From the NCBI GenBank assembly GCA_028281265.1, contig JANQKE010000011.1, positions 1 to 64,000 on the forward strand: a DNA stretch of 64,000 nucleotides. Reading direction: 5' to 3'. This stretch comes from Alphaproteobacteria bacterium. Lineage in GTDB: Bacteria; Pseudomonadota; Alphaproteobacteria; DSM-16000; Inquilinaceae. Shown piece after piece: positions 41,020 through 60,839 of this stretch. Position numbers and translations under genes: made by a program. Below the pieces are notes generated by a model. It did no database searches and had not been told where the DNA came from. It saw only the letters and a program-made list of their open reading frames with translations. Every line of letters starts with the position of its first letter. Position 1 is the first letter of the stretch.

Positions 41020-42222
41020 TCAGCCCTCGATCCCGATATCCTCGGCCGGCAGCAGAAGGCCGAACCGGCGCGGCCCACCGGCCGGACGTCGCTGCGCCAC
41101 GCCGATGCGGTGAGCGAGATACGGGTTGTCGATCTTCTGCTTCAGCAGACGCCCCAGCTTGGATTTCGCTTCGGTAACGAACCGCTCCAGCGCCTCGAAG
41201 CGATCGGCCGTCGGGTCGCGCCTGACATCGGCCAGCCGCGCCGACAACGCCTCGGCGCGGGCGCTGCCGGTCAGGAACGCCTGCTCGTAGAACCGGGCGA
41301 AAGTCCTCACGGCCGCGCCGTCGGGGTCGCGGAAACCGTCCATCGTCACCCAGCCGTAATGACCGTCGCCGACCCCGTCCGGGCCGGCCCCCGGCCAGCC
41401 ATCGACCGCGGCCGTCGCCAAGGTGGCGTACAGGGCGAACTCCCGGTGCGGCAGAACGATGTCCATCGATCCGATACGGAGCGTCCGCGCACCGCACCGG
41501 AGGGTGACCCCCGACAGGTCGAGCGCGTCCTGCACCGCGCGGACGACGCTGCGGTAATCCACCGCCGGGCCGCTGAGCGACCCCCGCTTCACGAACCGGT
41601 TGAGCCGGATGAACGGTGTGGGCACCAGATCCACCCGGGCCGCCCCGACCCCGGTGGGCAGCGGCCGACCGTCACGATCGGGGACCGTCGCCTCCGGCTG
41701 GCCGGGCCACCAGAAATCCGGGCACGTCTCCAGCGCAGCTGGTTCGACCAGCACATGGGAGAGGCTGTCCTGCTCCCGGCCGAACAGCATCAACGCGGAA
41801 TGGTCGTAGCAGGTCATCGACTTGCGGCCCCCCGCCACGGAGACATGCACCCGCGTTTCAGGCCGGGCGGTGAACCGCTCGACCAGCCGGGTGACATGAT
41901 TGGCGTAGGCGATCGTCTCGGCCTCGGTCCGGATGTCGGCGATCGGCCCCCCGTCCGCACCGGTCGGCACGGTCACCGACAGGCGGGCGGGCGGCACGCC
42001 CTGCTGCCGCATCAGCGTCGCCAGACGACCGGCCAGATCCTGCCGTTCGAGCCGATCGCGGCTCGCCGCGGTGGCCACCAGATGGATCTCGGACGGGATG
42101 AAGACGTCACGCTTGCGGTGGCCGGGGTCGATCAGATGCTGCGGGTTCATCAGCGCCCAGACGGTCTCGGTCACCACCTGCGGCGCCAGGCCGATCGACC
42201 CGATCAGCACATCCTTCGTCAT
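41020..42222 (-). CDS. NE0113-family (TIGR02584-like) CARF protein
   Basis: 400 residues. The CARF N terminus is clear: VLIGSIGLAPQVVTETVWAL, EIHLVATAASRDRLERQD, and VHVSVAGGRKSMTCYDHSAL, the second nucleotide-binding strand-loop. This matches the NE0113 family of CRISPR-associated CARF proteins. The C-terminal part is helical with a putative winged-helix or linker, and no HEPN or PD-D/ExK motif stands out. It may bind or degrade cyclic oligoadenylate. It is transcribed divergently from the cas2-cas1-cas2 cassette. Confidence 0.8.
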   Translation of the reverse strand: MTKDVLIGSIGLAPQVVTETVWALMNPQHLIDPGHRKRDVFIPSEIHLVATAASRDRLERQDLAGRLATLMRQQGVPPARLSVTVPTGADGGPIADIRTEAETIAYANHVTRLVERFTARPETRVHVSVAGGRKSMTCYDHSALMLFGREQDSLSHVLVEPAALETCPDFWWPGQPEATVPDRDGRPLPTGVGAARVDLVPTPFIRLNRFVKRGSLSGPAVDYRSVVRAVQDALDLSGVTLRCGARTLRIGSMDIVLPHREFALYATLATAAVDGWPGAGPDGVGDGHYGWVTMDGFRDPDGAAVRTFARFYEQAFLTGSARAEALSARLADVRRDPTADRFEALERFVTEAKSKLGRLLKQKIDNPYLAHRIGVAQRRPAGGPRRFGLLLPAEDIGIEG

Positions 42223-42363: not shown

Positions 42364-42645
42364 ATGACGCGCAACCGGTTGTACCTGATCGCCTATGACG
42401 TTCCCTGTCCCCGCCGGCGCGCCCGGGTGCTGCGGGCGGTGAAGGCCCATGGCGTGGACGGGCAGAAATCCGCCCATGAATGCGCGCTGACCCGGCGCGC
42501 CTATCGGGACCTCCGCCGCAGCCTCGACCGGGTGATGGATCGTGGGGCCGACCGGCTGCTGGTGCTCCGGCTCGACCCGCGCAGCCCGATCGACGGCCTG
42601 GGCATCGCACGGCCCGCGACCCCGGACTGGTTCTACATCGGTTAG
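42364..42645 (+). CDS. cas2: Cas2, first copy
   Basis: 93 residues: NRLYLIAYDVPCPRRRARVL carries the first strand and conserved Asp 12. ECALTRRAYRDLRRSLDRVM and DRLLVLRLDPRS follow, in the standard Cas2 ferredoxin fold order. Cas2 dimerises between Cas1 dimers in the spacer integrase. It is 18 bases upstream of cas1. It differs strongly from the second cas2 that follows cas1. Confidence 0.85.
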   Translation: MTRNRLYLIAYDVPCPRRRARVLRAVKAHGVDGQKSAHECALTRRAYRDLRRSLDRVMDRGADRLLVLRLDPRSPIDGLGIARPATPDWFYIG

Positions 42646-42663
42646 CAAGGGGGAGACCAGGCC

Positions 42664-43668
42664 ATGTCCACGCTCTACATCGACCGCAAAGGGGCGGAGG
42701 TCGACGCCGATGCTGGGACCATCACCGTCCGGACCGATGGGGAGCGGCGCGGCACCGTGCCGATGGGGCCCCTGGACCGGGTGGTGGTCAAGGGCACCGC
42801 CACCCTGACCACCCGGCTGATCGCCCGCCTGGTCGAGCGCGGCATCGGGCTGACCGTGCTGGCGGGGCGCGACGCGCGGCCGGTGGTCCAGCTCCCCTCC
42901 CTTGCGGCCGGCGACAGCGGGGCGCGGCTGGCGCAATACGCCCTGATGGCGGACGAGGACCACCGCGCCGCCCTGTCGCGGACGCTGGTGCTGGCCAAGC
43001 TGCGCGCCCAGCGCCGCATTCTGGCCGAGCTGTCGGATGCCGGGCCGGCCCCCGCCATCCGCGACGGGCTGGCCCTCCTCGACCGGTCGGTCCGCCGGCT
43101 GGACCGGGCCTCGGCCCCGCCGGCCCGCAGCACCCTGCGCGGGATCGAGGGGGCGGCGGCGGCCGGCTATTTCCGCGCCTTGGCGACGCTGTTTCCGCCG
43201 GCGGCCGGGTTCGAAGGACGCAACCGGCGCCCCCCGCGCGATCCGGTCAACGCCTGCCTGTCGCTGGGCTACACCCTGCTGCACGGCGATGCCATCCGCG
43301 CCGCGGCGGCCCACGGGCTGGACGTCATGCTCGGGGTCTATCACGACATCGCGCCGGGGCGGGAGAGCCTGGCCTGCGATCTGGCCGAACCGGTCCGGCC
43401 GCTGATCGACCGCACCGTCCACACCCTGTTCCGGGACCAGACCGTGCGGGCGGAGGATTTCACCCGGACCAAGGCCGGCTGCCGGCTGAAGAAGTCCGCC
43501 CGGCGGTCGGTCTACCGCGCCTTCGAGGCCGCCGCCCCCCTGCACCGCCGTCTGCTCGACCGGGCCGCCCGCCGGTTCGCCGCGGGGCTGCGCACCCGGC
43601 CGGACCCGCCCGCTCCGCCGGCCTTGCCACCGCCACCGGACGGTGCTGCCGCCCCGCAAGACCTCTGA
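42664..43668 (+). CDS. cas1: Cas1 integrase
   Basis: 334 residues. The N-terminal beta domain (STLYIDRKGAEVDADAG) precedes the helical catalytic domain with E162 (RGIEGAAAAGYF), H227 (YHD) and D239/E242 (CDLAEPVRP). LSLGYTLLHGDAIRAAAAHG matches the usual central helix. All metal-binding residues are present. No RT or Cas6 domain is fused to it; the RT of this locus is encoded 17 kb away on the other strand. The C-terminal tail is Pro-rich. Confidence 0.95.
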   Translation: MSTLYIDRKGAEVDADAGTITVRTDGERRGTVPMGPLDRVVVKGTATLTTRLIARLVERGIGLTVLAGRDARPVVQLPSLAAGDSGARLAQYALMADEDHRAALSRTLVLAKLRAQRRILAELSDAGPAPAIRDGLALLDRSVRRLDRASAPPARSTLRGIEGAAAAGYFRALATLFPPAAGFEGRNRRPPRDPVNACLSLGYTLLHGDAIRAAAAHGLDVMLGVYHDIAPGRESLACDLAEPVRPLIDRTVHTLFRDQTVRAEDFTRTKAGCRLKKSARRSVYRAFEAAAPLHRRLLDRAARRFAAGLRTRPDPPAPPALPPPPDGAAAPQDL

Positions 43669-43683
43669 CCGCAGGAGGCTCGA

Positions 43684-44046
43684 ACGGCCAAGCGCCAGAC
43701 CTGGCTGATCGCCTACGACATCGCCGATCCCCGGCGGCTGGGCCGGGTGCACCGGCTGCTGCGCAAGCGGGCCCGGGCAGTGCAATACTCGGTGTTCCTG
43801 GCCGAGCTGACGCCGTACCGCAAGGCGCGGCTGATCCGCGCCTTGGCCGACCTCATCGATCCCCGGTTCGACGACGTCCGGTTCTACCCGGTGCCACCGG
43901 GCTCGGCGCTGACGGTCCACGGCCCGTCGCTGCTGCCCGACGGGGTGATGCTGTTCGACGGTACGGGCGACAGGGCGACCGAGGCGCCCGAGCGGCCGCC
44001 CGCCCGTAATACGGGCGCCCGGCTTCCCACCGACGACCGGATTTGA
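43684..44046 (+). CDS. cas2: Cas2, second copy, apparent ACG start
   Basis: 120 residues reading AKRQTWLIAYDIADPRRLGR, then VQYSVFLAELTPYRKARLIR, DDVRFYPVPPGS: Cas2 with its catalytic-site Asp. No ATG, GTG or TTG occurs between the in-frame stop of cas1 and the first strand. ACG at 43684, five bases after AGGAGG, is the best start; CTG at the LIAYD codon would truncate the strand. The C-terminal 40 residues extend beyond typical Cas2. The leader of array 1 follows 65 bases later. Confidence 0.85.
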   Translation, partial: TAKRQTWLIAYDIADPRRLGRVHRLLRKRARAVQYSVFLAELTPYRKARLIRALADLIDPRFDDVRFYPVPPGSALTVHGPSLLPDGVMLFDGTGDRATEAPERPPARNTGARLPTDDRI

Positions 44047-44111
44047 TACGCTCGACCCATCAGGGACGGGGCAGAACCCCCGTCACGACCGGTCGGATCG
44101 GGGTGAGTGAC

Positions 44112-44192
44112 GTGTTTACAATTAGATGCGATTCATTCTCACTAACACCACCTCCAAGCCCTTGGAATCAGGGTGCTTTCTAGGGGTCAGCG
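44112..44192 (+). promoter_or_regulatory. CRISPR array 1 leader
   Basis: 81 nt immediately before the first repeat, with TGTTTACAATT and ATTCTCACTAACAC near its start and GGGTCAGC at its end. It aligns without gaps to the 81 nt before array 2. It is expected to carry the array promoter and the Cas1-Cas2 docking site. Confidence 0.8.
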
Positions 44193-47100
44193 GTCCGGCC
44201 GAAGTCCTGAAGAAGAAGGAACTGAAACAGTTCAACGGGGTCGGGGGCAACATATTGTTGGTCCGGCCGAAGTCCTGAAGAAGAAGGAACTGAAACTAAC
44301 GTTGTCGCACGCCTCCGCGACGGTCAACCGTCCGGCCGAAGTCCTGAAGAAGAAGGAACTGAAACGGTGAACCAGAAGGTCTGGCTCGGGACATCGTGTC
44401 CGGCCGAAGTCCTGAAGAAGAAGGAACTGAAACATGATAGCGCTGCCCACGCTGGTCGGTTGTGCGTCCGGCCGAAGTCCTGAAGAAGAAGGAACTGAAA
44501 CAGCTCACACGCCGCCGCCACACCGGCGGATACAGTCCGGCCGAAGTCCTGAAGAAGAAGGAACTGAAACCCATGCCGGAGTCCACGACCGCATCGATGT
44601 CGTCCGGCCGAAGTCCTGAAGAAGAAGGAACTGAAACGTTTTGCCAGCGCCTTGCGCAACTTGTTGCCCGTCCGGCCGAAGTCCTGAAGAAGAAGGAACT
44701 GAAACTTCAGGAACGGCCCGTGGGTACGGCGGCTGCGGTCCGGCCGAAGTCCTGAAGAAGAAGGAACTGAAACGACACGGATGACTTCAGCACTCTTGCG
44801 AGCGCGTCCGGCCGAAGTCCTGAAGAAGAAGGAACTGAAACTCGGCCGGCCGCGTGGTGGCGGCGATGGTCCCAGGTCCGGCCGAAGTCCTGAAGAAGAA
44901 GGAACTGAAACGATGTTTTGGTCCCTTTCCCAAGGGGACCAAAGTCCGGCCGAAGTCCTGAAGAAGAAGGAACTGAAACAGAACTTCGGTATCCTTACGT
45001 TTTCTTCCCAGGTCCGGCCGAAGTCCTGAAGAAGAAGGAACTGAAACACGCGCATGGCGCCCTCCTGTGTTAAGGTTCAGTCCGGCCGAAGTCCTGAAGA
45101 AGAAGGAACTGAAACAGGCAGGTCGCGACTAACACTAACTTCTCCATCGTCCGGCCGAAGTCCTGAAGAAGAAGGAACTGAAACGCCTGGGCCACGCGGC
45201 TCCTGAGGTCTGCCCGTCCGGCCGAAGTCCTGAAGAAGAAGGAACTGAAACAAATCGACGAGGGCGATTCTTTCCCCCCTCTCGGTCCGGCCGAAGTCCT
45301 GAAGAAGAAGGAACTGAAACATGAAATGGATACATGGTTCAGTCGCTGGCGTCCGGCCGAAGTCCTGAAGAAGAAGGAACTGAAACGTGAACACGGTGTT
45401 CACGATGATGTGACGATTAGTCCGGCCGAAGTCCTGAAGAAGAAGGAACTGAAACCGAAGCCCTCCGCCAGACACGTGATGTATTCGTCCGGCCGAAGTC
45501 CTGAAGAAGAAGGAACTGAAACCTGGTGTCATGACTGGCAGCTCGGTCAAGTTTGTCCGGCCGAAGTCCTGAAGAAGAAGGAACTGAAACGAGACTACAC
45601 GCCGAATACCTCGCATGAATAGTCCGGCCGAAGTCCTGAAGAAGAAGGAACTGAAACACGGCGGCCGTCGCTGCCCTCGAGCGTATTACGTCCGGCCGAA
45701 GTCCTGAAGAAGAAGGAACTGAAACCCGAAAACCCTGGTGTGGCGGCGACGGTAGCGGTCCGGCCGAAGTCCTGAAGAAGAAGGAACTGAAACCAGCCGC
45801 CTCGCGCGGCCTCCCATGGCGGCGATGTCCGGCCGAAGTCCTGAAGAAGAAGGAACTGAAACCCCAAGCTGAATCCAAACGACGGGGCACTGCGTCCGGC
45901 CGAAGTCCTGAAGAAGAAGGAACTGAAACATCCAGTTCACGCCGACGTTGTCTGCCGCCAGTGTCCGGCCGAAGTCCTGAAGAAGAAGGAACTGAAACGG
46001 TAGACCGAACTTGGTCACGATGAACCATGAGTCCGGCCGAAGTCCTGAAGAAGAAGGAACTGAAACCTGCCGGCGGCGGTGGCGGAGCGGCTACGGGGTC
46101 CGGCCGAAGTCCTGAAGAAGAAGGAACTGAAACGCACCGGGCCGAGCGCTTGGAGACCGAGGTCGAGTCCGGCCGAAGTCCTGAAGAAGAAGGAACTGAA
46201 ACTTGTGCGATGGCCATCATCTGCTGCACTTGCTGTGTCCGGCCGAAGTCCTGAAGAAGAAGGAACTGAAACGCTCCCTCGTGCGGTACTGGACGAGCAT
46301 GTTGAGTCCGGCCGAAGTCCTGAAGAAGAAGGAACTGAAACTTTCTTCGTCGGTGTCATCGGCAGGCATGAGGGTCCGGCCGAAGTCCTGAAGAAGAAGG
46401 AACTGAAACTTTACTCGAGGAACCCGCCTCCCTAGGTAAAAGTCCGGCCGAAGTCCTGAAGAAGAAGGAACTGAAACAAACCGGCCAGGACACAGCAGAC
46501 CCAAAATGTCGTCCGGCCGAAGTCCTGAAGAAGAAGGAACTGAAACGTATGGTGAACCGTCAGGACCAATACGTTCGTCCGGCCGAAGTCCTGAAGAAGA
46601 AGGAACTGAAACTTGGCGCACTCAGCCATAAGCCGCCTTCTAGGGTCCGGCCGAAGTCCTGAAGAAGAAGGAACTGAAACGTAGCGGTGTTCTTGTATAT
46701 TCACCACCATCTGTCCGGCCGAAGTCCTGAAGAAGAAGGAACTGAAACGGCAAGCCTTTGCCAATATCGTCTCTGACTGTGTCCGGCCGAAGTCCTGAAG
46801 AAGAAGGAACTGAAACCCTCGGAGAGGTGCCGGCGACGAGCAAAGTACGGTCCGGCCGAAGTCCTGAAGAAGAAGGAACTGAAACCGAGGTAGCACCACG
46901 ACTGGCCGGTCAGTTGCCGTCCGGCCGAAGTCCTGAAGAAGAAGGAACTGAAACGCGCCCTTCGTTCGCTACCCGCGCCCACACACGTCCGGCCGAAGTC
47001 CTGAAGAAGAAGGAACTGAAACAAGGGAGCACTGGCCGAGATGATGCCCCGCGACCGTCCGGCCGAAGTCCTGAAGAAGAAGGAACTGAAACATAAGGTA

Positions 47101-47500
47101 GGGGGGTATTTGAACCCCCCCGTCCGGCCGAAGTCCTGAAGAAGAAGGAACTGAAACATACGGGTACCGTTTGTTGGCAAGCGGTAGTAGTCCGGCCGAA
47201 GTCCTGAAGAAAAAGGAACTGAAACAGTGATTCGAACCTTAGTGGGCCACCGTAGCGTCCGGCCGAAGTCCTGAAGAAGAAGGAACTGAAACCTGCCTCC
47301 CGGCCCCAAGCTCAGATTCTTTTCGTCCGGCCGAAGTCCTGAAGAAGAAGGAACTGAAACCTGGACCAGGAGCCTGCGCGGTAACCCCCCAAAGTCCGGC
47401 CGAAGTCCTGAAGAAGAAGGAACTGAAATGTGCTGGGCGATAGCGGGTCGACATTCAGCCAGGGTGCGGCTGAAGTTCTGAAGGAGAAGGAACGGAGAAT
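44193..47500 (+). CRISPR. type III CRISPR array 1, 48 repeats plus a degenerate terminal copy
   Basis: 36-nt repeats start GTCCGGCCGAAGTCCTGAAG and end GGAACTGAAAC; spacers are 29-34 nt and the repeat period is 65-70. The last full repeat (47394-47429) ends in T instead of C, one repeat (47190) has a GAAAAAGG variant, and a strongly decayed copy lies at 47464-47500. Decay at the right end and the leader at the left give + strand transcription. The final eight bases ACTGAAAC fit the canonical type III 5' handle. Confidence 0.98.
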
Positions 47501-48818: not shown

Positions 48819-48846
48819 TGCCGGCCTCCCCTCCTTGCCGTCGAGG

Positions 48847-49779: not shown

Positions 49780-49789
49780 TATTGGGCTC

Positions 49790-52552
49790 TCACCGCCGCC
49801 CGCCCCGCGACGCCGGCTCGGGCCACAGGGGCAAACCCTCGCCGTCGGCCAAGGCGGCCAGCCCCACCCGGTTGCCGGCGGGCGCATCCTGACCGGTTCT
49901 TTCGTTCCGGGTGAACCACTCGAAGTTCTTGCCTTCGGGATCGGGCCGTTCGGCCGCACGGGGGTAGTGGATCGGCAGATCGTCCTCCGGCCCGCAGGCG
50001 GCGGCCAGGAAGGCCTTGATGAACGCTACGTCGGCAAACCCGTCCGCCTGATCCGGATAGCACTTGCCGATCGCTTGTCGGAACCGGTCGATGAACCGCT
50101 TCGCCGCCGCGCGTACCTTGTCGGTGCCGCCGGCGGTCGCGGCATCGATGCGGCAGCGATCACCGTCGGCCGCCATGGCGGGGTCGGGTGCGAGCAGGAA
50201 CGACAGATACTCCGCGCGCTTGCCCGACCCATTGGCGAGGTCCAGGCCTTCGAGCCGCACCCGGGTGCTGCCGAAGCCCAGCGGCTTGCCACCGCCGAGC
50301 CGCAGCACCGGATCCCCTTTGACCGTCGGGTCGTCGGGCAAGGACAACAGCCACAGCAGCGCCCCCAGCTCCGCGTCATCGAGGTTGACCACGTCGATCC
50401 AGGTGGAGAACCGGGTGCCCGGGCGGACCCAGGCCTTGATCGACCGGTTCTGGTCGTCGCGCAGCTCGCCCGGGTTCTTGGCGCGGCGGCGATACTCCCG
50501 ATAGACGGTCTGCCGGCCGGCGGTCAGCGCCTGCGGCTGTGCCGGCGGTTCCTTACCGGCGGCCTGGGGGTCCCAATAGGTCTCCGCCAGCCCGGCCCGG
50601 TCGAGATAGGCCGGGTGCGGGTAGACCTTGCGGCCGCGCAAGCCCTTATGGGCGGCATAGGCCGCGTCGGCCTTGCTGAGATGGTCGGCCTGCGGCGTGC
50701 CCTCCTTGTCCTTGCCGACATAGAACCGGGCCTGCTGCGGCTTGGGCGTCGACAGGATCGCCAGCGGCAGGGGATCGGCGAACCGGTCGATCGCCCGCTC
50801 CACCGCCGTCTCACAGGTGATCGGGCCGATCCGCAACTGCCCGCGCCAGGCTCCGTCCCCGGCCTGGCTGGCCCAGCCGAACACCCGATCGGCGGGGGAA
50901 AGCTGCCGGAACCGCTTGACGTGGGTGGTCACGTCCCCTTTCGCCGCCGGTTGTTCCAGCTTGGCCGGCAGCAGCTCAGGCGGCAGCAGGGTGGACGGCG
51001 GTACGTCCGCCAGTTCCCGCGAGATCATCACGGGGTAGAGGGCGACGACCGCATTGCCGTCCATCTTGGCGTAGCCCAGGGTGCCGGCTTCGAGCTTCCG
51101 GTCTTCGGGCGTGTAGACGTGACGCGACCAGGCGGTCTTGCCCGGCTCGTGGCCGAGGAAGCGGTCGGGGGGCTCCTTCCGCTTCTTCAGATCGTCTTCG
51201 TGGGTCTTCTGATAGTTGGCGATCAGCTCCCGCCAGGCCTTGCCGAGGTCCTCCATATCGGCCGCAACCCGGCGCGGCCGCTGGTTGGGTAGGGTGAAGA
51301 ACACCCGCTCATCATGTTTGCCGCCGATATTCTGGTTGGTCACGCAGACATGGCCGTCGACCCGCAGCAGCGGTTCTCCGCCGACCGGCCGGTGGTTGCG
51401 GCTCCCCCACCGGGACGGTTGCGGCTTGGGCAGAGTGTCCCGGTCCTTCCGGCCGATGGCGATCACCCGCCAATAGGTGAAGCCGCGGACATGCTCGTAA
51501 AGCTGTAGCCAGCAGGTCACCGGGTCGCGATGGGCGGGCAGTTCGCCGTCCGGATAGCGGACCGCATGACGGTCGATGCCGCCCTGCCTGGCGATGTACC
51601 GCGGCAGCCAGGCCGCGTACATCGTCGCCGGCTTGGCGGTGACCTCACGCCGGTCCCCCAACCACAGCTCGATACCGCCGCCGTCATCGGTCACCCGGGC
51701 CGGGACGACGGATAGGCCGCCGCGCGCCTCCATCCGGTGGGCCAGGCGATCCTCGTGCCCGGTGAACACGGCCAGCCGCGAATTGGTGATCGCCTCATAG
51801 GCCGCGCGCAAGGCCCCCTTGAGCGAGGTCGGCGGCAGATAGGGGCCACCGCCCCGCCCGGTGCGCAGATCGAAGGTCTTGTGGCCGTCCGAGCGGGTCT
51901 CGGCCGAGCCCGCGTCGGGGATCAGCATCGGCGTCACCGCCTCCAGGCCGATGCGGATGCGGCCCGTCCACCGATCCTCATGGTAGCGGTCGTGCCCCTT
52001 GGGTGCGCCTTGCTTCATCCCGTCAGCACAGGCGCCCTCGGTCCCCATGGCGGGCGGCCGGTCCTCATGGTAGCGGTCGTGCCCCTTGGGTGCGCCTTGC
52101 TTCATCCCGTCGGCACAGGCACCGTCAGTCCCCATGGCGGGCGGCACCGCCGGGATGAAGTTGTAGGGATTGTGAAACGCTGCCGGCGGCCGCTGCGACG
52201 GTCGGGGCCGATCGGTGTTGCGCCCGGCACCCGCCGCGTGCCGGCCGGGACCGGTCGGTCCGCGGCTCTGGGTCTTCTGCTGGACCGGCGGCGGCGGCGG
52301 GGCGGTGCTTCCCGCCCAGGCCTCGCCTGCGGGACGGATGCGCACCTTCCGGCCGCCATGGTCTTCGAAATCGACCGCCTGTTCGGTGTCGCTCGGGGTC
52401 TTCAGGGACGGGGCGAGCTGTGCGCGGTCCTTGACCTCGCTTTCGGCCGGGTTGCCCTTTTTCGACTGGAAGCACAGATAGGGTCTGGGGGTAGGGTCGG
52501 CGCCCTGTCCCGGTTTCCAGACCAGCGTGCCGCGCTGCGGATCGGCCATCAC
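49790..52552 (-). CDS. Cas7-insertion RAMP protein (TIGR03986-like)
   Basis: 920 residues. A long low-complexity N-terminal part contains PYNFIPAVPPA. The RAMP core then starts RIRIGLEAVTPMLIPDAG and has GGPYLPPTSLKGALRAAYEA, the Cas7 glycine-rich loop. Central and C-terminal segments (YAKMDGNAVVALYPVMISRE; LRLGGGKPLGFGSTRVRLEG) fit TIGR03986. This is the subunit called Cas7-insertion in the Synechocystis III-D variant. A tandem duplication lies at 136-193. Overlaps csx19 by four bases. Confidence 0.8.
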   Translation of the reverse strand: MMADPQRGTLVWKPGQGADPTPRPYLCFQSKKGNPAESEVKDRAQLAPSLKTPSDTEQAVDFEDHGGRKVRIRPAGEAWAGSTAPPPPPVQQKTQSRGPTGPGRHAAGAGRNTDRPRPSQRPPAAFHNPYNFIPAVPPAMGTDGACADGMKQGAPKGHDRYHEDRPPAMGTEGACADGMKQGAPKGHDRYHEDRWTGRIRIGLEAVTPMLIPDAGSAETRSDGHKTFDLRTGRGGGPYLPPTSLKGALRAAYEAITNSRLAVFTGHEDRLAHRMEARGGLSVVPARVTDDGGGIELWLGDRREVTAKPATMYAAWLPRYIARQGGIDRHAVRYPDGELPAHRDPVTCWLQLYEHVRGFTYWRVIAIGRKDRDTLPKPQPSRWGSRNHRPVGGEPLLRVDGHVCVTNQNIGGKHDERVFFTLPNQRPRRVAADMEDLGKAWRELIANYQKTHEDDLKKRKEPPDRFLGHEPGKTAWSRHVYTPEDRKLEAGTLGYAKMDGNAVVALYPVMISRELADVPPSTLLPPELLPAKLEQPAAKGDVTTHVKRFRQLSPADRVFGWASQAGDGAWRGQLRIGPITCETAVERAIDRFADPLPLAILSTPKPQQARFYVGKDKEGTPQADHLSKADAAYAAHKGLRGRKVYPHPAYLDRAGLAETYWDPQAAGKEPPAQPQALTAGRQTVYREYRRRAKNPGELRDDQNRSIKAWVRPGTRFSTWIDVVNLDDAELGALLWLLSLPDDPTVKGDPVLRLGGGKPLGFGSTRVRLEGLDLANGSGKRAEYLSFLLAPDPAMAADGDRCRIDAATAGGTDKVRAAAKRFIDRFRQAIGKCYPDQADGFADVAFIKAFLAAACGPEDDLPIHYPRAAERPDPEGKNFEWFTRNERTGQDAPAGNRVGLAALADGEGLPLWPEPASRGGRR
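51973..52146. repeat. 87-bp tandem duplication within the Cas7-insertion gene
   Basis: Two 87-bp units give 29-residue protein repeats (PPAMGTDGACADGMKQGAPK followed by GHDRYHEDR). They are almost identical and in frame, inserted between YNFIPAV and the first core strand. Confidence 0.9.
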
Positions 52553-53184
52553 GCGCCTCCCTGCTCGGATCGTTTAGGAGCATAGGCCTCGAAGCCGGTC
52601 AGGCGCTGGTCGACCACGGCGACGTTGCCATGTGGCCCGGTCTCCAGATACTCGACGGCCGTCAGCCAGAGACGCCGGCGGTCCGTATCCGGCCCGACAA
52701 ACGGCACCCAGAGCCGGCCGATCCGGTTGCTGGTCAGTGCGGTCCAGCCCGCCGGATCTGTCGTCTCCTTCTCACCCCACAGCACATAATGCTGGGACAG
52801 CCGGGCGTGGAGCGGTCGGGTCCCTGTCTCCCCACTATCCAGTCGCTGCCGCAGGATGTCAGGCGCCCGATCTCCCTTCGCCAGCATCGCCGCAGCACCG
52901 GTCATCCCGTCGCGCAGCCACCGGAGTTCCCAATCCGCGCAGAACAGCTTGATCTCATAGGCCTGGGCGCGGACGGCATCCGTGAACGAAGAGTGCTGGC
53001 CGAGCTTGAAGCCGGGCGGGCCTTCGAGCCTCCCGCCGCCTGTCATCCGGCCGAACACGCAGAAGCGCGGCGCATAGATCAACGCGGCGACGCCGATCGC
53101 CGGCACATTGCCAGCGGCGGCCAGTAGGTCTTCGAGGGCCACACCGCGTGCCGTCCAGGTGTGAAGCTGATGGGCTTCGGTCAT
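52549..53184 (-). CDS. csx19: Csx19-like subunit
   Basis: 211 residues. AYEIKLFCADWELRWLRDG is the characteristic motif of the TIGR03984/Csx19 group, and the protein has the size and gene position of Csx19 in III-D variant systems: between Cas7-2x and Cas7-insertion. Overlaps both neighbours by four bases. It is thought to be a structural subunit of the effector complex. Confidence 0.75.
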   Translation of the reverse strand: MTEAHQLHTWTARGVALEDLLAAAGNVPAIGVAALIYAPRFCVFGRMTGGGRLEGPPGFKLGQHSSFTDAVRAQAYEIKLFCADWELRWLRDGMTGAAAMLAKGDRAPDILRQRLDSGETGTRPLHARLSQHYVLWGEKETTDPAGWTALTSNRIGRLWVPFVGPDTDRRRLWLTAVEYLETGPHGNVAVVDQRLTGFEAYAPKRSEQGGA

Positions 53185-55055
53185 CCCGCCATCCCCTCCT
53201 CACCGCAGCAGCGACGCCAGGCGGTCTGAAACGCCGCCAGCCGCACATCGATGCGGGTGCCGGTGCCGAGGGAAGAGGGCCCGAAGCTCTCTTGCGTCAG
53301 CGTCAGATCGTCGAGCTCCTTCAGGCCGTCCTGGCCCAAGCTTGCATCGTCCGGGGCCGTCACCGTGAAGGCGATGCTCTCGACCGCGATCGCCCCCAGC
53401 CCGCGATTGCCGCCGAAGCCGATGGGGATCCGCTGGAACAGCAGGTCCCGCAAGACCAGCAGCAACAGGGCGACGGCCGATTGCCGCCAGGCGATGGGGT
53501 CCTTCTCCAGCCGCTCCCATCCCGGGTCCGCGCCGTCGGCCGGGGGGCAGGCCAGCCGGGTCGGGTCCAGGCTGAGGCGGATCGGCTCCCAACGGACCGG
53601 CCCGGGTTCGAGGACGCTGTAGAGGAGGTGCTCGGCCGCCCCGCCGGTCCAGCGGTCGATGGCGACATGGGTGACGGGGGTGAACCCGCTCAACCCGGCC
53701 GCGGCGAGGGCCTGGTTCAGGCTGGTACCCCGCTTCGCTTGCCGTTGGGCTTTCGGCGAGTCGGTTTGCTCCTCGACCGCGGCCGCATCCTGTGCCCGGA
53801 CGATCGCCTGCCACTGCTCCGGCGTGACATGGGCGGCGGCGGTGGCGAAGCAATCATCGACCGACACCGCACCCAGGCCGGGGCGTATCGGCTCGGGACC
53901 GTCTCGCTCGGACCGCTTGTCGTCGTCTTCGCCTTCGCTGCCCGTGTCCCCCGTCTCGGCGCTGCCCCGACCTTTCTCGCCACCGCTGCCCTTGCCCTTC
54001 GGCGCCGGTGCACCGAACAGGCTCTCGGCCAGGGCGAACGTCGCGAGATGCTCCAGGAAACGGTTCTGGCCGCCGGTTGGGTTGGGGTTCCGGCAGATCC
54101 GCAGCACGGTCCCCAAGATCCGCTCCGCCTGGCTGCGCAGAGCCCCCTTGAGAGACGAACCCGGCAACACCGGCGCCATCCGGTCGCCGATGCCGCTGAA
54201 CAGCGGCACCATATCGACGGCGATGCCCTCGACATCGGATTTCACCATGACCGGGCCGACCGGTTCCCATTTGATGGTCACGTCGATGCGCGGGCGGACC
54301 CTCGGCCGCGGTTCGGTGCCGTCGGCCCCCGCCAGCAAGGCCTCGATGGTCAACACCGTGCCGGCCGTTGCGGTCTTGCCGGCCGACAAAAGGGCGAGCA
54401 CACCGTCGGCCGTATCCAGCACCTGCTCGTGGATGGCGACATCGGGCTCCAGCCGGACCCGGCCCAGGCCGCGGGTCTTGCCTGCCCCCAGCCGGACCGC
54501 GCCGTCGCGCAACGAGGCCAGGAGATGTCCCAGCGCCAGCTTGACCACCGCGGGGTCGACACGGGTCGCCGGCACCTCCACCGTCATGTCCAGCGCGATC
54601 CGGCTGCCGACCGGCAGGATCTGCCGGTCGTATTTGATCCGGTCGGCGGCCCGCCCCTCGACCCGGTCGATGCCCACCCCGTCGCGGATCTCTAGCGCCC
54701 CGGACGGGGTCACGCGGGCGTCTTCCACGATCACGAAGCTCGCCATCCCGGCTTTGGCGTCGGGCTCCCCACGGTCGGGCGTGAAGCCCCAGAGCTGGGC
54801 GGCGAAGCTCTTGCCCTTCACACCGGTCACCGGATCGCCGACCTTCCCGAGCCACGCCTCGTCGGCGCAGGCCCAGGCGTGCCAGGCGCGCAAGGCCCCG
54901 GCCAGGCTGGTGCCCGGCAGATAGGGCCGGCCTCTGCCGTCGAGGGCCACCGGCAGGTCCGTGGCGATCCGCGACCCCGCCCCGCCGACATGCAGCGGGG
55001 TGACGGCGACCAGCGTGCCGACGACCCGGAAGCGACCGTGCAGCGGCCTAGCCAT
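53181..55055 (-). CDS. Cas7-2x, fused double Cas7/Csm3-like protein
   Basis: 624 residues with two Cas7 modules. Module 1: GTLVAVTPLHVGGAGSRIAT, D33 as candidate RNA-cleaving Asp, then GRPYLPGTSLAGALRAW and LGAGKTRGLGRVRLE. Module 2 starts about 258 with VTIKWEPVGPVMVKSDVEGI and has MAPVLPGSSLKGALRSQAER and IGFGGNRGLGAIAVESI. An acidic, low-complexity linker (GSEGEDDDKRSERDG) separates parts of module 2. Two backbone subunits in one chain is the III-Dv arrangement. Overlaps cas7-5-11 by eight bases. Confidence 0.87.
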   Translation of the reverse strand: MARPLHGRFRVVGTLVAVTPLHVGGAGSRIATDLPVALDGRGRPYLPGTSLAGALRAWHAWACADEAWLGKVGDPVTGVKGKSFAAQLWGFTPDRGEPDAKAGMASFVIVEDARVTPSGALEIRDGVGIDRVEGRAADRIKYDRQILPVGSRIALDMTVEVPATRVDPAVVKLALGHLLASLRDGAVRLGAGKTRGLGRVRLEPDVAIHEQVLDTADGVLALLSAGKTATAGTVLTIEALLAGADGTEPRPRVRPRIDVTIKWEPVGPVMVKSDVEGIAVDMVPLFSGIGDRMAPVLPGSSLKGALRSQAERILGTVLRICRNPNPTGGQNRFLEHLATFALAESLFGAPAPKGKGSGGEKGRGSAETGDTGSEGEDDDKRSERDGPEPIRPGLGAVSVDDCFATAAAHVTPEQWQAIVRAQDAAAVEEQTDSPKAQRQAKRGTSLNQALAAAGLSGFTPVTHVAIDRWTGGAAEHLLYSVLEPGPVRWEPIRLSLDPTRLACPPADGADPGWERLEKDPIAWRQSAVALLLLVLRDLLFQRIPIGFGGNRGLGAIAVESIAFTVTAPDDASLGQDGLKELDDLTLTQESFGPSSLGTGTRIDVRLAAFQTAWRRCCGEEGMAG

Positions 55056-57630
55056 CGATCCTCTCCCGTTGCCGGGCCGGCGATCCGTGATCGTGATCGT
55101 GATCGCCGGCCGGCCGCTCGATCGACCGCTTGTGGGCCTGCATCGCGGCCAGCAGCAGGTCGCGGACGGCGGCCTGACGGAACCGCTCCCGCAAGCGGTC
55201 CCGGTCGGTCACCAGGGGGGCCGGCGGGGGTGTCCCGAGTTCCTTCAGCCACGTCCAAATCCTGGCCGCGTCGTCGGGTCCTTCAGGGTCAAGCAGCGTC
55301 TTGAGTGCGGCGCGGGCCTTCTGCCCCCATTTGTCGGCCCGGGCGGGGCTCTCGGTCATCTGGGCGAACCACTGCCTGGCACTGGCGACGTCATGCGCGT
55401 CGGCATAGGCGCCCATGGCGGCGCGGAGCGCGCCGAGCTGGCTCATCGGCGGTTTGGGTCTGCCGTTGGCGGTGTCCCAGTGCAGCGACTTCTTTCGCCA
55501 GGTGTCGTCATTGGCCAGGGTGAACGCGGCCTCCTCGACGAACGCTTCCCACGCCGCCGTCTCGACCGCCTTGGCGAAGCGCCGGGTGGGGTCGTCTTTC
55601 GGCAGTCCAGCCAGGGGTGGGGGTAGTGCCTCGGCTCTCCGTTCCGGTCGGTCCTTGCGTGAGGAGCCCGACCAGCCCGAAGCCTTGCCCGTCAGATGGG
55701 GCGGGTTGATCCACACCTCCCCGAAGCCTTCGGCCCGGCGTTCCCCCAGCCCGTTGCGCTCCAGCGCCTCCAGCGCGGCGCCCGGCACCGGCTCTGCCGC
55801 TCTCACCTTGACGAACGATCCGGCTTGCAGCGCGATCAGGCTCGGCCGCGGCAACTGCCAGGCCGCCACCCAGCTTTCCAGCCGGCGGAGACGCAAACCG
55901 TAGGTGACCTGATCCGGCGTCGTCGGCTCAACCGCCTCGACCGTGACCCCCAGCGCGTCGCCCAAGGCCGTCACCCAGTCGCCCAGGGCACTGCCGGTGC
56001 CCAACAGGGGGGAACGCAGCAGGACATCCGAGGTCAGCCAGACCGTGAACGGCTTGTTGGCCGCCTGGTCCTTACGCCCACTGTTCCCGGCCTTCACCGC
56101 CGGCCCGGCGCTCAAGCGGACGACGCCGTAGCCGGCCTTGGTCGCCCGCCCCAAGCGCAGCTCCACCGGGTCGGTCGGCGCCACGGCCGCCTGCCAGTTC
56201 GGCAGCCGGCGCGCCACGCCCGTGCGCACCCGCACCAAGGCCCGGTAGCGGACGCGGCCGGGGCTGATCGCCTCATAGCTGTAGACACCGTTTTCGGTCG
56301 GCCGCTGGACGGCATCGTCGATGCGGTTATGGGTCCGGACCACGGTGTCGACCGCCGTCAGCAGCGTCGGCCGCTCCGCGTCGTAGCGGACATAGCCCGA
56401 CCGCATCGGTCTGGTCTGACCTTCGGGAGTCAGCAGCTTCGGCCGCTCCGCGTCGTAGCGGACATAGCCCGACCGCATCGGTCTGGTCTGACCTTCTGTT
56501 CGGGGGCGCTCGACGAGCCGGTTGTAGATCTTGCCTTTGCCGTCCGGCCCGCCGGTGTCGTCCTTCTCCCGCTGCCAGGCCAGGGGGATCGGCAGGCTGC
56601 GCTCGCCGCCGAGGATCGGGGTGGCGTGGCCGACCCGGATGTCACCGGCGGTGATCGCGGCGGAGACCGGCGGGCCGCCCTGGACGACCGTCTCGAGACG
56701 CTTGGCCACATAGGGCAGCAGGTAGGTGCCGGGGATGAAGTCGAAGCTGGTGACGACGTTGCCCAGCACCGCCTCGGCGATCACCAGCGGCGTCACCAGG
56801 TCGAGATCGAGCGCCACCGTCTCCCACCCGTCGGCCGGGGTCGCGGCCCCGAACGCCGGGGCCGGGGTCGGAGCCGGGCCGTCCGGTGCCTTCGGTGCCT
56901 CCTGCTTGAGCACCGCGATCGCCGTGTTCAGATCGCGGACCGGCGGGTTTTGATGATCGATGGCGATCGACCAGGTGCTGCGGCCGGCCCCGCGGCGGCG
57001 CTTGCCGCCCAGACGCTCAACCATCCCCGTCGAGCCGACCAGCACCGCCGCCAGCGCCCGGTTCCAACGATCGCCGGGATCGCCGTGCAGCAGCAGCCGA
57101 CCTTGGGCGGTCAGCACCGCCCCCTGGCGCGCCACCTCCTCGAACCGCAGGAATTTGGGCGTCACCCGACCGGATTGCGGGTCGATCTGCACGCCGGGTT
57201 TGACGAAGGTCAGCGCCTGACGCAGCCGGCGGCGGCCCGGATCGGTGTCGCCGCCCTGCGCCTGCTGCCACAGGGCGTCGCGCAGGTCCTGCGGCAGCCG
57301 GCCCGCGGCGATGCTGAGGCAACCTGGTTTCGGCGTACCGCCGTCCGGCACGGTCCGGTCGACCGGCTGGTCGCCGAACAGCGCCTCGACCAGCGCGGCC
57401 CATCCGGACGTCGAGCCCGTCGTGCCGCCATCGAGGCCATAGGCCAGCCGCTCGGCCGCGTCGCGCCAGATCCCCCGCACCGTGGAGGCCGGGATGAACG
57501 GCAGATCGTCCACGTCCCGTTCGATCAGCCGGTCGATGGCGCCGTGCCGGCCGCCGCCGGTGCCGACATGCCAGTCCGACCGCATGGTGATCGTCAGGGT
57601 GAAGGCGATCTCGGTGGGCGAAGGGCTCAT
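55048..57630 (-). CDS. Cas7-Cas5-Cas11 fusion protein
   Basis: 860 residues. N-terminal Cas7/Csm3 module (TLTITMRSDWHVGTGGG, candidate catalytic D33, DLPFIPASTVRGIWRDAAER, KRRRGAGRSTWSIAI). A Cas5/Csx10-like module from about 270 (VALDLDLVTPLVIAEAVLGN, FDFIPGTYLLPYVAKRLETV, TKAGYGVVRLS). An alpha-helical C terminus from about 690 (AFVEEAAFTLANDDTWRKKS, LGALRAAMGAYADAHDVASA) fits Cas11. Such a triple fusion is the hallmark of the III-Dv complex. A 24-residue tandem duplication sits at about 379-426. Starts two bases after the cas10 stop. Confidence 0.82.
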   Translation of the reverse strand: MSPSPTEIAFTLTITMRSDWHVGTGGGRHGAIDRLIERDVDDLPFIPASTVRGIWRDAAERLAYGLDGGTTGSTSGWAALVEALFGDQPVDRTVPDGGTPKPGCLSIAAGRLPQDLRDALWQQAQGGDTDPGRRRLRQALTFVKPGVQIDPQSGRVTPKFLRFEEVARQGAVLTAQGRLLLHGDPGDRWNRALAAVLVGSTGMVERLGGKRRRGAGRSTWSIAIDHQNPPVRDLNTAIAVLKQEAPKAPDGPAPTPAPAFGAATPADGWETVALDLDLVTPLVIAEAVLGNVVTSFDFIPGTYLLPYVAKRLETVVQGGPPVSAAITAGDIRVGHATPILGGERSLPIPLAWQREKDDTGGPDGKGKIYNRLVERPRTEGQTRPMRSGYVRYDAERPKLLTPEGQTRPMRSGYVRYDAERPTLLTAVDTVVRTHNRIDDAVQRPTENGVYSYEAISPGRVRYRALVRVRTGVARRLPNWQAAVAPTDPVELRLGRATKAGYGVVRLSAGPAVKAGNSGRKDQAANKPFTVWLTSDVLLRSPLLGTGSALGDWVTALGDALGVTVEAVEPTTPDQVTYGLRLRRLESWVAAWQLPRPSLIALQAGSFVKVRAAEPVPGAALEALERNGLGERRAEGFGEVWINPPHLTGKASGWSGSSRKDRPERRAEALPPPLAGLPKDDPTRRFAKAVETAAWEAFVEEAAFTLANDDTWRKKSLHWDTANGRPKPPMSQLGALRAAMGAYADAHDVASARQWFAQMTESPARADKWGQKARAALKTLLDPEGPDDAARIWTWLKELGTPPPAPLVTDRDRLRERFRQAAVRDLLLAAMQAHKRSIERPAGDHDHDHGSPARQRERIDG
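56357..56496. repeat. 72-bp tandem duplication within the cas7-5-11 fusion
   Basis: Two copies of about 68 bp with period 72 (56357-56424 and 56429-56496) encode EGQTRPMRSGYVRYDAERP followed by K/T-LLT. In frame, with only a few differences, so recent. Confidence 0.92.
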
Positions 57631-57632
57631 GA

Positions 57633-59564
57633 CTACTTGCCCCCCTCCAGCTCCGCCAGCGCCATCGCGTCCAGCAGCCAGGTGCGGACGATGTCGGGCG
57701 GAGGTTCTTCGCCTTCTGCCGGTGGGGTCCGACTCATTGGCGGATCGTCGAAGAACAGGCGCCGGGTGCCGTCTCGGCCTTCGCCGGCCGGATGCAGGGC
57801 GCTCCAGTGGACGTCGCGGTAGCGGTGTCGGATCTGGTCGCACCGGGCCTCCGCCGTCGCCGGCCCCAGGAAGACGCCTTCGCGCAAGTAATGCTGTTGG
57901 GTCCGGGGCAGCAACCCGCGGTCATCATCGTCGCGCTCCTCACCCGCCCGCAAGGCGATGGCGGCCTGACGAAGACCCGATCGGCACTTGTCCCCCTCCC
58001 AGAGCCGATTGATGGTCCAGCAGCACCGGTCTTCGGCGGTTGGCCAGCCGTTTGCCGTCTTTTGTGGCAGGCCGTCGAGCACGGCCAGCGGAGTTGTGAT
58101 GAAGGGTCCGCCCGCCAACACCACCACCGGATCGCGGTTCTCGTTCCGTGTTGTCCGATGCTCCCGAAGGGCATCGAGATCGGCGCCGGAGCTGTCGAAA
58201 TGGACGTGGAAATCGAGCGCCGAGCAGAACCGGCCGACATTCCGCTTCACCGACTTCGCCGATCGGCACAGCGCCTCGGCCAGCTCGTAGGCCCGGTGGG
58301 CGGGGAAGTGCGGCTTGACCACGGCGATGCCGGCGCAGGCGGACAGGCCGGGGCCGCCGGTCACCGCCTTCGCGATGGCCGGGAGCGCATCCCCGAACCG
58401 CTTCGAAGGCCGGCCCGTGAGCCTTTCGAACGCTTGCAGGAACGTCGCGGCGAAGTCGATCGCCCGCTGGCCGTCGCAGACCGCGGTCAGATCGTCGCCG
58501 CCGAGGATCACGGGCACGAGGGGGACGGATTTTCTCTTCTTCTCTTTCTTGCCGTCACCTTGCGTGTCTGCATCCGCATTCTCCTTTACCGTGACCGGCG
58601 GCGGGAGCAGCTTGTCCATCGCGGTCTCGACGGCCTTGATCGTGCAGTGATCCAGATGCAGCGACAGCTTGCGATAGTCGTCGATATACGACCGGGCATT
58701 GTGGAGGTCAGGGCGCCTGGCCGTTTCGCGAGCGTTCTGGAAGTCCTGGAAGATCCTGCCGAGCTCGTTGCCGTCGGCATGGATGTAGGCCAGCCAGTCG
58801 GCATCGAACGCTTCGAGGTCCTGGATCGACACTTCCGGGACGACACCGCCCAGCTCCCCAAGCTGCCACAGCCTTGCCCGCGCCCGCTTCAACTGGCAAG
58901 TCTTGGCCTTGACCGGCGGCGACATCAGGTAGGTGTCGGTGCCCACCGTCCCTTCTTCAGAGGCCGGCAACCCGCTGGTGGTGCAGACTTCCGTAACCGG
59001 CAGCAGCGGAAACCGGGCCGCCGGCGCCGGCAGCAGGGCCCGGGTGGTCTCCAGGGTCTGGTGAACGGTCCGCACCACCTCGTGGAGGGTCTCCGCCTTG
59101 CCGAACCGGAACGGCTCGGACACCACCCCACACACCGCAACCCCCGGCGCCTCTGTCAGCGCCCGGCAGGTGACCCGCCGGACGATCTCCTCCCCGATGC
59201 CCCGCTCCTTGACCAGCAGCAGCGCCTTGCCGGAGGTGGCGACCAGGATCTCGACCGCTTTCTTCTCGTCCGTTCGCTTTTCGATGGGCGGGTTCGCGGT
59301 CTCCGCATCGAGCAGATACGCGCTGACCTTGGCCGTCGTCAGCACTTGTTGAGCCGTCTTGAAGCCGGGCGGCTCGATGCACTCGACGGGTGGCCGCTTC
59401 CGCCCCGTCACGTCCGCGGCGGCTTTCAGCACGAAGTCGACGCCGACCCTCCGGATGATCTCCGAGGCACCGATTTGCTCACGCAACCGGTTGGTGCCGA
59501 AAATATAGGCTTGATTGCCGGCCGTCTCGATCAGCACGAGATGGACGTCGACATCCTCGGTCAT
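57633..59564 (-). CDS. cas10: Cas10 without HD domain, GGDD polymerase
   Basis: 643 residues. The protein opens with a Cmr2-like palm (HLVLIETAGNQAYIFGTNRL, REQIGASEIIRRVG) rather than an HD nuclease. YIHADGNELG at about 260 and the active site VPVILGGDDLTAVCDG (GGDD at 355-358) follow, so cyclic oligoadenylate synthesis is expected while single-strand DNase activity is not. A Lys-rich loop (GDGKKEKKRKS) precedes the palm strand. ATG overlaps the RT stop by four bases, coupling the two genes. Confidence 0.92.
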   Translation of the reverse strand: MTEDVDVHLVLIETAGNQAYIFGTNRLREQIGASEIIRRVGVDFVLKAAADVTGRKRPPVECIEPPGFKTAQQVLTTAKVSAYLLDAETANPPIEKRTDEKKAVEILVATSGKALLLVKERGIGEEIVRRVTCRALTEAPGVAVCGVVSEPFRFGKAETLHEVVRTVHQTLETTRALLPAPAARFPLLPVTEVCTTSGLPASEEGTVGTDTYLMSPPVKAKTCQLKRARARLWQLGELGGVVPEVSIQDLEAFDADWLAYIHADGNELGRIFQDFQNARETARRPDLHNARSYIDDYRKLSLHLDHCTIKAVETAMDKLLPPPVTVKENADADTQGDGKKEKKRKSVPLVPVILGGDDLTAVCDGQRAIDFAATFLQAFERLTGRPSKRFGDALPAIAKAVTGGPGLSACAGIAVVKPHFPAHRAYELAEALCRSAKSVKRNVGRFCSALDFHVHFDSSGADLDALREHRTTRNENRDPVVVLAGGPFITTPLAVLDGLPQKTANGWPTAEDRCCWTINRLWEGDKCRSGLRQAAIALRAGEERDDDDRGLLPRTQQHYLREGVFLGPATAEARCDQIRHRYRDVHWSALHPAGEGRDGTRRLFFDDPPMSRTPPAEGEEPPPDIVRTWLLDAMALAELEGGK

Positions 59565-60583
59565 CCGGGACCCCCCTGACCCGATCCATCGTTTTTACCG
59601 AGATTACGATAATCTGGTGCGCACGCAAGTCGGGAAATCGACAAGGTTGCCGGAATCTCGTCCCGGCCCCCTCGCGCGGCAGGCGCCGACGGGTCATCAC
59701 CCTCCGTCTCGGCCGCGGGCGGCAGCGGTGTCACCGCGGCCCCGTGGAACCGGTGGCCGAGGAACTCGAACCCCCGGGCAAAGGTGGTGACGTCCGTCTT
59801 GTCCGGGTGCAGCGCCAGGCCATAGGTCGCCAGAACCGCCGTCAGCCGCGTCCGGCACGCTTGCGCTGCCGCCCGATCCCGGCACAGCACGACGAAATCG
59901 TCGGCATAGCGGACCAGCCGGCTGGTCTTCCGATCGATCGCCCGGTCCACCGGATCGAGATAGAGATTGGCCAGCAGCGGGGAGATCGGGGCCCCTTGCG
60001 CCACCCCATACGCCCCCCATTTGCCGATCCGGGCCTGGCGGAACCCGGCCAGCCAGCCCGCCACCAGCCCGCGCACCGCCGGGCAGTCCACCCGGCCGGC
60101 CAGGGCCCGCAGCAGCGGGCCGTGCGGGATCGTATCGAAATAGCGGCGGATGTCGCCGTCCACCACCCATCCACAGCCCCACAGCCGATAGGTCGTCACC
60201 CGGCCGATCGCATGCGCCACCGACCGGCCGCGCCGATAGGCGAAGCTGGCGTCCGACAGGGTCGGGTCGATCAGCCGGTCCAGTTCGATCGCCGCGGCCG
60301 TCTGCACCACCCGATCGGCCACCGCCGGGATCGCCAGCACCCGCTGCCCGCCATCGGGTTTCGCCAGCACCGCCCGACGCAGCCGGCCCGGCCGATAACG
60401 GCCGTCGAGCAAGGACCGGGACAGTGTCGCGATGGCCTGCTCGCTGTCCGCGGCGAAGGCCACGACCCCATCCTGGTCCGGCCGGCCGGACCCGGCGGCG
60501 GCGCGGGCGTTGCGCCGCACCCGGCGCCACGCTTGCCGCAACGCCGACGGGGCCGCCAGACGCTCGAACAGGGCTGAGACCAC
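59561..60583 (-). CDS. stand-alone CRISPR-associated reverse transcriptase
   Basis: 340 residues from a GTG preceded by GAAGGGGGGTCC. Polymerase motifs: LLDGRYRPGRLRRAVLAKPD, RVLAIPAVADRVVQTAAAIE, GDIRRYFDTIPH (D144, D150), QGAPISPLLANLYLD, RLVRYADDFVVLC (YADD 226-229), then GLALHPDKTDV and GFEFLGHRF. This is group II-intron-like RT core only: no maturase or endonuclease domain is seen. It is translationally coupled to cas10, so it belongs to the CRISPR operon. Related RTs fused or adjacent to Cas1 capture spacers from RNA. Confidence 0.92.
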   Translation of the reverse strand: MVSALFERLAAPSALRQAWRRVRRNARAAAGSGRPDQDGVVAFAADSEQAIATLSRSLLDGRYRPGRLRRAVLAKPDGGQRVLAIPAVADRVVQTAAAIELDRLIDPTLSDASFAYRRGRSVAHAIGRVTTYRLWGCGWVVDGDIRRYFDTIPHGPLLRALAGRVDCPAVRGLVAGWLAGFRQARIGKWGAYGVAQGAPISPLLANLYLDPVDRAIDRKTSRLVRYADDFVVLCRDRAAAQACRTRLTAVLATYGLALHPDKTDVTTFARGFEFLGHRFHGAAVTPLPPAAETEGDDPSAPAARGGRDEIPATLSISRLACAPDYRNLGKNDGSGQGGPG

Positions 60584-60839
60584 GGACCCCCCTTCACCGC
60601 GACGACAGGACCGGCCCCACGGCCGGACGATCGCCCCCGTCATAGCCGAAACGACCGCCCGCTCGGGAATTGGCAACCTTGCCGGAATGCCCATCGGCCG
60701 AAAGCGGCGCCACGATACGCCGCAAGACCGCCCTGCCGAGAGCATCCTGCGTCCGACCGGACACAGAGTTAAGAGGCTCGAATGTCCGCCGTGACACCGG
60801 GGCGCCCGGCGGCCCGCCGCGATGAGGAGGCATCCCCCC

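Follow-up and report, generated by a model that had tools for sequence, protein, structure and literature searches.

To our knowledge, a symmetric homodimer of Cas2 underlies every Cas1-Cas2 integrase known so far; in the complexes that are known, a single Cas1 in each dimer does the cutting. The locus examined for the current report has in common with the canonical integrase, in which Cas1 dimers are bridged by one Cas2 homodimer (PDB 8d3l, 7mi4), the E/H/D triad of Cas1, Cas2-fold partners and leader-repeat arrays, but it is one of a set of loci in which each Cas1 comes with two different Cas2 genes that are inherited together, and usually with a further, degenerate Cas1. With the type III systems that encode a fusion of reverse transcriptase (RT) and Cas1 (Tistrella locus L106; PDB 7kft) it shares effector genes of type III-D and an RT that is related at 45% identity, whereas its own RT is unfused, its Cas1 belongs to a different clade and it has two Cas2s instead of one. 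The cas2-cas1-cas2 genes of the Sphaerotilus sulfidivorans plasmid pSna507_unt13 have the same order and both Cas2 types, but there the ATG of the second cas2 overlaps the cas1 stop and no RT was found in a 17-kb stretch. The cas2-cas2-cas1 genes of Allochromatium vinosum pALVIN01 likewise include both Cas2 types and a Cas1 of the same clade, although both cas2 genes lie upstream of cas1 and a degenerate Cas1 is absent. No description of a double-Cas2 module was found in a search of open-licence full texts, among them PMC12669027, PMC9048733, PMC6753606, PMC5541045 and PMC6013744, and an account elsewhere is possible.

We propose, with a probability of about 0.6, that the cassette is a type III adaptation module whose predicted integrase combines one catalytic Cas1 with two obligate and anciently diverged Cas2 proteins, likely as a heterodimer, and that the second of these proteins (Cas2b) is translated from a derived ACG. 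Two Cas2s conserved as a pair within a single Cas1 clade would be a testable candidate for the built-in asymmetry that might orient spacers in PAM-independent type III systems, and would also give a rationale for the "second" Cas1.

The cassette and the type III-D genes around it

The window, by which we mean the whole stretch of 64,000 nucleotides that was analysed, comes from a 4.33-Mb draft genome in 232 contigs. Its features are the following:

41020..42222, minus strand: NE0113-type Csm6/ring nuclease, divergent from cas2a
42364..42645, plus strand: cas2a, 93 aa, ATG start, GQKS motif
42664..43668, plus strand: cas1, 334 aa, catalytic E162/H227/D239 present
43673..43678, plus strand: AGGAGG, presumed Shine-Dalgarno sequence of cas2b
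43684..44046, plus strand: cas2b, 120 codons from a putative ACG start at 43684-43686, QYSVF and DDVR motifs
44047..44192, plus strand: leader of CRISPR array 1, its 3' part alignable with the array 2 leader
44193..47360, plus strand: CRISPR array 1, 46 exact 36-nt repeats, the first at 44193 and the last beginning at 47325
47703-48899 and 48847-49959, minus strand: two CARF-type signalling proteins (PADLOC: one CARF-RelE profile, one membrane CARF profile)
49790..52552, minus strand: TIGR03986 type III RAMP protein
52549..53184, minus strand: Csx19 (type III-D)
53181..55055, minus strand: Csx7/Csm3-like Cas7 protein
55048..57843, minus strand: Cas5_IIId/Csx10-like plus Cas7-like protein
57633..59564, minus strand: Cas10 (III-D like)
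59561..60883, minus strand: unfused group II-like RT of the same locus
61910..63989, plus strand: CRISPR array 2, 31 repeats that carry a diagnostic change at one base (A to T), running to the window end

The three cassette genes are intact and stand head to tail. The original prediction of dissimilar Cas2 proteins on either side of Cas1 is borne out by the NCBIfam models, since cas2a and cas2b score 28.3 and 29.1 bits against TIGR01573 (cas2, cut-off 24.5) and BLASTP aligns merely 14 residues of the two proteins; cas1 reaches 189.9 bits against TIGR00287 (cut-off 71.7). The composition of cas2b is normal for coding DNA, with GC contents at codon positions 1/2/3 of 0.73/0.53/0.91 as compared with 0.78/0.58/0.92 for cas1. 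A single-sequence AlphaFold2 model of Cas2b was poor (pLDDT 43.6). The three genes also share one reading frame, broken only by stop codons (TAG, TGA) and short spacers, an arrangement that is not general among relatives.

Membership of the effector genes in type III-D is indicated by Csx19 (84.3 bits, cut-off 35) and the TIGR03986 protein (271.6 bits, cut-off 161), together with PADLOC matches to Cas10d (1e-67) and Cas5_IIId (9e-23); the NCBIfam Csx10 and Cas10 models fall below their cut-offs. The TIGR03986 gene contains a tandem 87-nt duplication (51971-52144, 94% identical) that repeats 29 residues in frame.

Recurrence of the Cas2 pair in one Cas1 clade

Loci were sought by Cas1 alone, so the Cas2 pair was not preselected. 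When a Cas1 profile was run against 398 genomes of the phylum and 30 loci were fetched, the best 8 matches (at least 288.7 bits, window included) were all double-Cas2 loci, one of them on a contig that ends before cas2b, whereas each of the 22 weaker fetched matches (at most 266.3 bits) had one Cas2. The nearest Cas1 in a class-wide search, in genome G146 (46% identity), also has a Cas2 on both sides. A search of 369 genomes of another class, round genome G640, gave 25 loci in 23 genomes, all 25 with both Cas2 types (one cas2b being cut off by the end of its stretch), so that the Cas1 clade is not rare in this sample. The class search round G438 and the order search covered the same 78 genomes. 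Scans of genome contigs with a single protein query and of viral contigs each produced two loci, with one Cas2 match apiece, the former in Competibacteraceae.

Altogether the clade, gathered by Cas1 similarity, comprises 35 loci including the window, with Cas2a in 35/35 and a Cas2b with a readable start in 33/35; in the remaining two (L064, L090) Cas2b runs off the contig or stretch. A locus that was fetched twice enters the counts a single time (L008=L027; L033=window; L034-L040=L063-L069; L073-L078; L002/L025=L028; L062=L012). L053, which duplicates L022, is represented in the Cas2 tree and not in the Cas1 tree, and a type II locus on contig C36 (L001/L029) was left out of both. L108-L115 are wider stretches around loci already counted, and L107 is another contig of G640. 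In the Cas1 tree, one change (support 99) divides the 35 double-Cas2 loci from 40 single-Cas2 outgroup loci, with the Cas1 of the window among the former at the same support. The active site (E162, H227, D239) is kept in all 35 loci, and no gene reached a dN/dS of 1 in any of the seven pairs of related loci tested. The linkage of both cas2 genes to cas1 persists in three different gene orders, and the module accompanies III-A-, III-B- and III-D-type effector genes, as exemplified by the III-B genes of G640 and G495 and a Csm3-type gene in G146.

The two Cas2 types fall apart in a tree of 109 Cas2 proteins, which is drawn from few columns and contains many weak forks: 35 Cas2a proteins lie on one side of a branch (95/71), 33 Cas2b proteins on one side of another (95/98), and 41 Cas2s from single-Cas2 loci outside both groups. 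A GQ[KLHY]S or RQKS motif occurs in 35/35 Cas2a and 0/33 Cas2b proteins, and DD[VIL]R in 32/33 Cas2b and 0/35 Cas2a, while the Asp after strand 1 ([YT]D[IV]) is common to all 35 and all 33. As judged from these comparisons of sequence, Cas2a and Cas2b constitute two anciently separate families, co-inherited with one active-site-bearing Cas1 and under purifying selection. Decay of the first cas2, which had been named as an outcome that would undo the prediction, is contradicted by the greater conservation of Cas2a (mean column identity in first alignments 57%, against 41% for Cas2b). Cas2a as a decayed copy is ruled out by its conservation in 35 loci and by dN/dS values of 0.09-0.26 in the seven pairs.

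A few loci depart from the common pattern. On Allochromatium tepidum plasmid pAt1 (L032 8339-8983), which is outside the 35 since it has no complete Cas2 pair, cas1 is accompanied by a partial cas2b, in which a piece of a PEGA-domain gene takes the place of the start, and cas2a is missing; this represents either decay of the pair or its dispensability. The cas2b frame of genome G763 (L092 123-260) ends after 50 codons, from a possible frameshift or in a decaying copy, and was kept in the counts. In genome G992 the module is adjoined by a gene for an adenosine-deaminase-domain protein with a weak ring-nuclease/CARF match (L112 3050-5215).

The start codon of cas2b

The frame that follows the cas1 stop reads TGA CCG CAG GAG GCT CGA ACG GCC AAG. 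It confirms to the letter the original statement that ATG, GTG and TTG are absent between the in-frame TGA and the first strand of Cas2b, and that ACG stands 5 nt after AGGAGG; it also lies 15 nt after cas1. The earliest canonical in-frame start within cas2b is a GTG at 43747, the use of which would delete strand 1 and the conserved Asp. The plus strand of the window has only 10 copies of AGGAGG, and the chance of finding one at any of six allowed spacings is ~0.0009. Translation of cas2b would most likely begin at the ACG at 43684, behind this strong signal, with ACG derived from ATG, and the ribosomes that end on cas1 15 nt upstream might perhaps feed such initiation.

Among the 33 readable cas2b starts (33 of the 35 loci; L064 and L090 end too early), 26 are ATG, 4 GTG and 2 TTG, the ACG of the window being the remaining one and aligning with the starts of its orthologues. 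A search at the level of the order for a close relative with the locus matched 1 of 17 genomes, that of the window itself. RNA folding of the cas1-cas2b junction was no stronger than that of shuffled sequences (z -0.03), so that structural coupling is unsupported there. The AGGAGG could pair with a CCTCT before the cas1 stop (43660-43680) in a possible ribosome-opened hairpin, again no stronger than chance. The ACG probably lowers Cas2b output, but the suggestion that a weak start sets the stoichiometry of the integrase finds no support as a property of the module when 32/33 starts are canonical. From the sequences at hand, the ACG seems to be a quirk of the window genome rather than a conserved regulatory device.

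The ACG of the window might be a weak start of derived origin or the mark of a decaying allele; a sequence error is less likely. The alignment of junctions, which had been proposed as a check, did bring out a canonical codon at the aligned position in 32/33 loci, ATG at that codon being what the original prediction named as pointing to a sequence error, but an error is judged the less likely cause, it being improbable that a random one would fall precisely on a start codon. That the cas2b of the window is hobbled, either by a recent change from ATG to ACG that leaves a decaying gene and a Cas1 working with Cas2a alone, or by a mistaken base over a true ATG, seems to us an unlikely though still serious reading: ACG is one transition away from ATG, the assembly is in 232 contigs, the relatives' starts are as counted above and the window is without the degenerate Cas1 too, yet the frame, conserved motifs and codon composition are all intact and AGGAGG is retained at a good spacing. 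It is highly improbable that the UGA is read through to give a Cas1-Cas2b fusion in which a start codon is unneeded. The two genes share a frame with just five sense codons from UGA to ACG, but a strong Shine-Dalgarno sequence precedes the ACG, and in 17/32 relatives the start of cas2b and the stop of the gene before it overlap, most commonly by 4 or 10 nt, which places cas2b in another frame and rules out read-through as a conserved strategy.

Partners and composition of the predicted integrase

A gene of ~260 codons follows cas1 in 26 of the 35 double-Cas2 loci (complete in 25) and in most relatives lies between cas1 and cas2b. Its product is a degenerate Cas1: Pfam Cas_Cas1 was matched by all 6 members scanned, and 77 N-terminal columns of its profile align with the Cas1 profile (probability 95). 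It retains the N-terminal beta domain and not the catalytic residues; alignment of the 25 complete sequences reveals no conserved histidine, a proline being the sole invariant column. All 25 match PADLOC PDLC01185 ("Cas1, diverged variant, second in the loci"; best E 1.2e-75), so that the protein is already catalogued and our "Cas1x" is a handle only; the label is silent on paired Cas2s and on function, and a search of the open-licence literature did not find the publication from which PDLC01185 originates. A search of the window's own genome for the gene found none (best E 0.074, on another cas1), and a search of plasmids gave no match. The order cas2a-cas1-cas2b occurs in four loci (window, L030, L065, L083) whose places in the Cas1 tree are scattered, which fits repeated loss of Cas1x; the lineage of the window would be one that lost it. 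Where present, the degenerate Cas1 could serve as a Cas1 subunit set aside for a non-catalytic role.

The RT (59561-60883, minus strand) and Cas1 (42664-43668, plus strand) of the window are separate polypeptides and do not form an RT-Cas1 fusion. At 1e-45, a search of 289 genomes of the class matched the RT in its own genome and two others. Of these two, the one inspected, Tistrella genome G273, holds the nearest kin found: there the RT is fused to a Cas1 that lies outside the double-Cas2 clade (L106 10876-12867), with a single Cas2 after it and III-D genes alongside. In the flanks fetched for 17 further double-Cas2 loci, which amount to 355,137 bases over 21 stretches (one of these being a different contig), no RT relative was present. 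On account of these two results the locus appears to pair a III-D/RT effector half with an adaptation module that stems from type III systems lacking an RT. Those 17 loci also rule out the RT as an explanation for the presence of two Cas2s. As to the proposed check of whether both Cas2 types recur with this RT, the pair recurred in loci whose fetched flanks hold no relative of the RT, which appears incidental.

The two arrays have the same orientation, a conserved leader and repeats one base apart, and the 73 spacers scored are all different. Repeats end mostly in GGGATTAAGAC in related loci as opposed to GGAACTGAAAC in the window. A phage search with array 1 and a search of Rfam gave no match.

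Two homodimeric integrases, serving different arrays or different substrates (DNA versus RNA/cDNA), might be imagined for a locus that is flanked by two arrays and encodes an RT. We consider this quite improbable. The arrays agree in orientation, in leader and in every repeat base except one, which does not suggest separate integrases and rules out a need for them on the arrays' account; the idea of two substrates gains nothing from an RT that has no relative in 17 other loci and whose kin makes do with one Cas2, and the module is found alike with III-A-, III-B- and III-D-type effectors. Rather doubtful, too, is the proposal that one Cas2 alone is the integrase subunit and the other an accessory nuclease or regulator travelling with the operon. 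The separate private motifs and the different C-terminal tails, that of Cas2a being strongly conserved, speak in its favour, but both proteins have the Cas2 fold, their closest solved relatives are Cas2 proteins, several out of integrase complexes, and both genes are tightly linked to cas1 across three gene orders.

The reading that we prefer is that a Cas2a-Cas2b heterodimer most likely bridges the Cas1 dimers, because one such complex best explains why the pair stays linked across three gene orders and alongside effectors of several types; as an alternative, Cas2a and Cas2b could each homodimerise. A hybrid integrase was the best supported of the original ideas: the co-occurrence of both Cas2 types throughout the Cas1 clade stood, while their union in a single complex is something that we infer. 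Since the pair recurs across many bacteria, it is probably a mixed-subunit memory-writing enzyme. Speculatively, Cas1x might fill the non-catalytic place in each Cas1 dimer, and a mixed Cas2 dimer might make the integrase intrinsically asymmetric, such that spacer orientation would be fixed without a PAM or Cas4. We advance tentatively, and at something short of even odds, the broader possibility of a widespread heteromeric type III integrase of the Pseudomonadota, with an obligate Cas2a-Cas2b pair and usually a dead Cas1 subunit, in which asymmetry encodes spacer orientation without a PAM.

The genome of the window has two more CRISPR loci, one a single-Cas2 cas1-cas2 locus with its own array (L028 1431-2742) and the other a Cas9-type, type II locus (L029 3084-7563).
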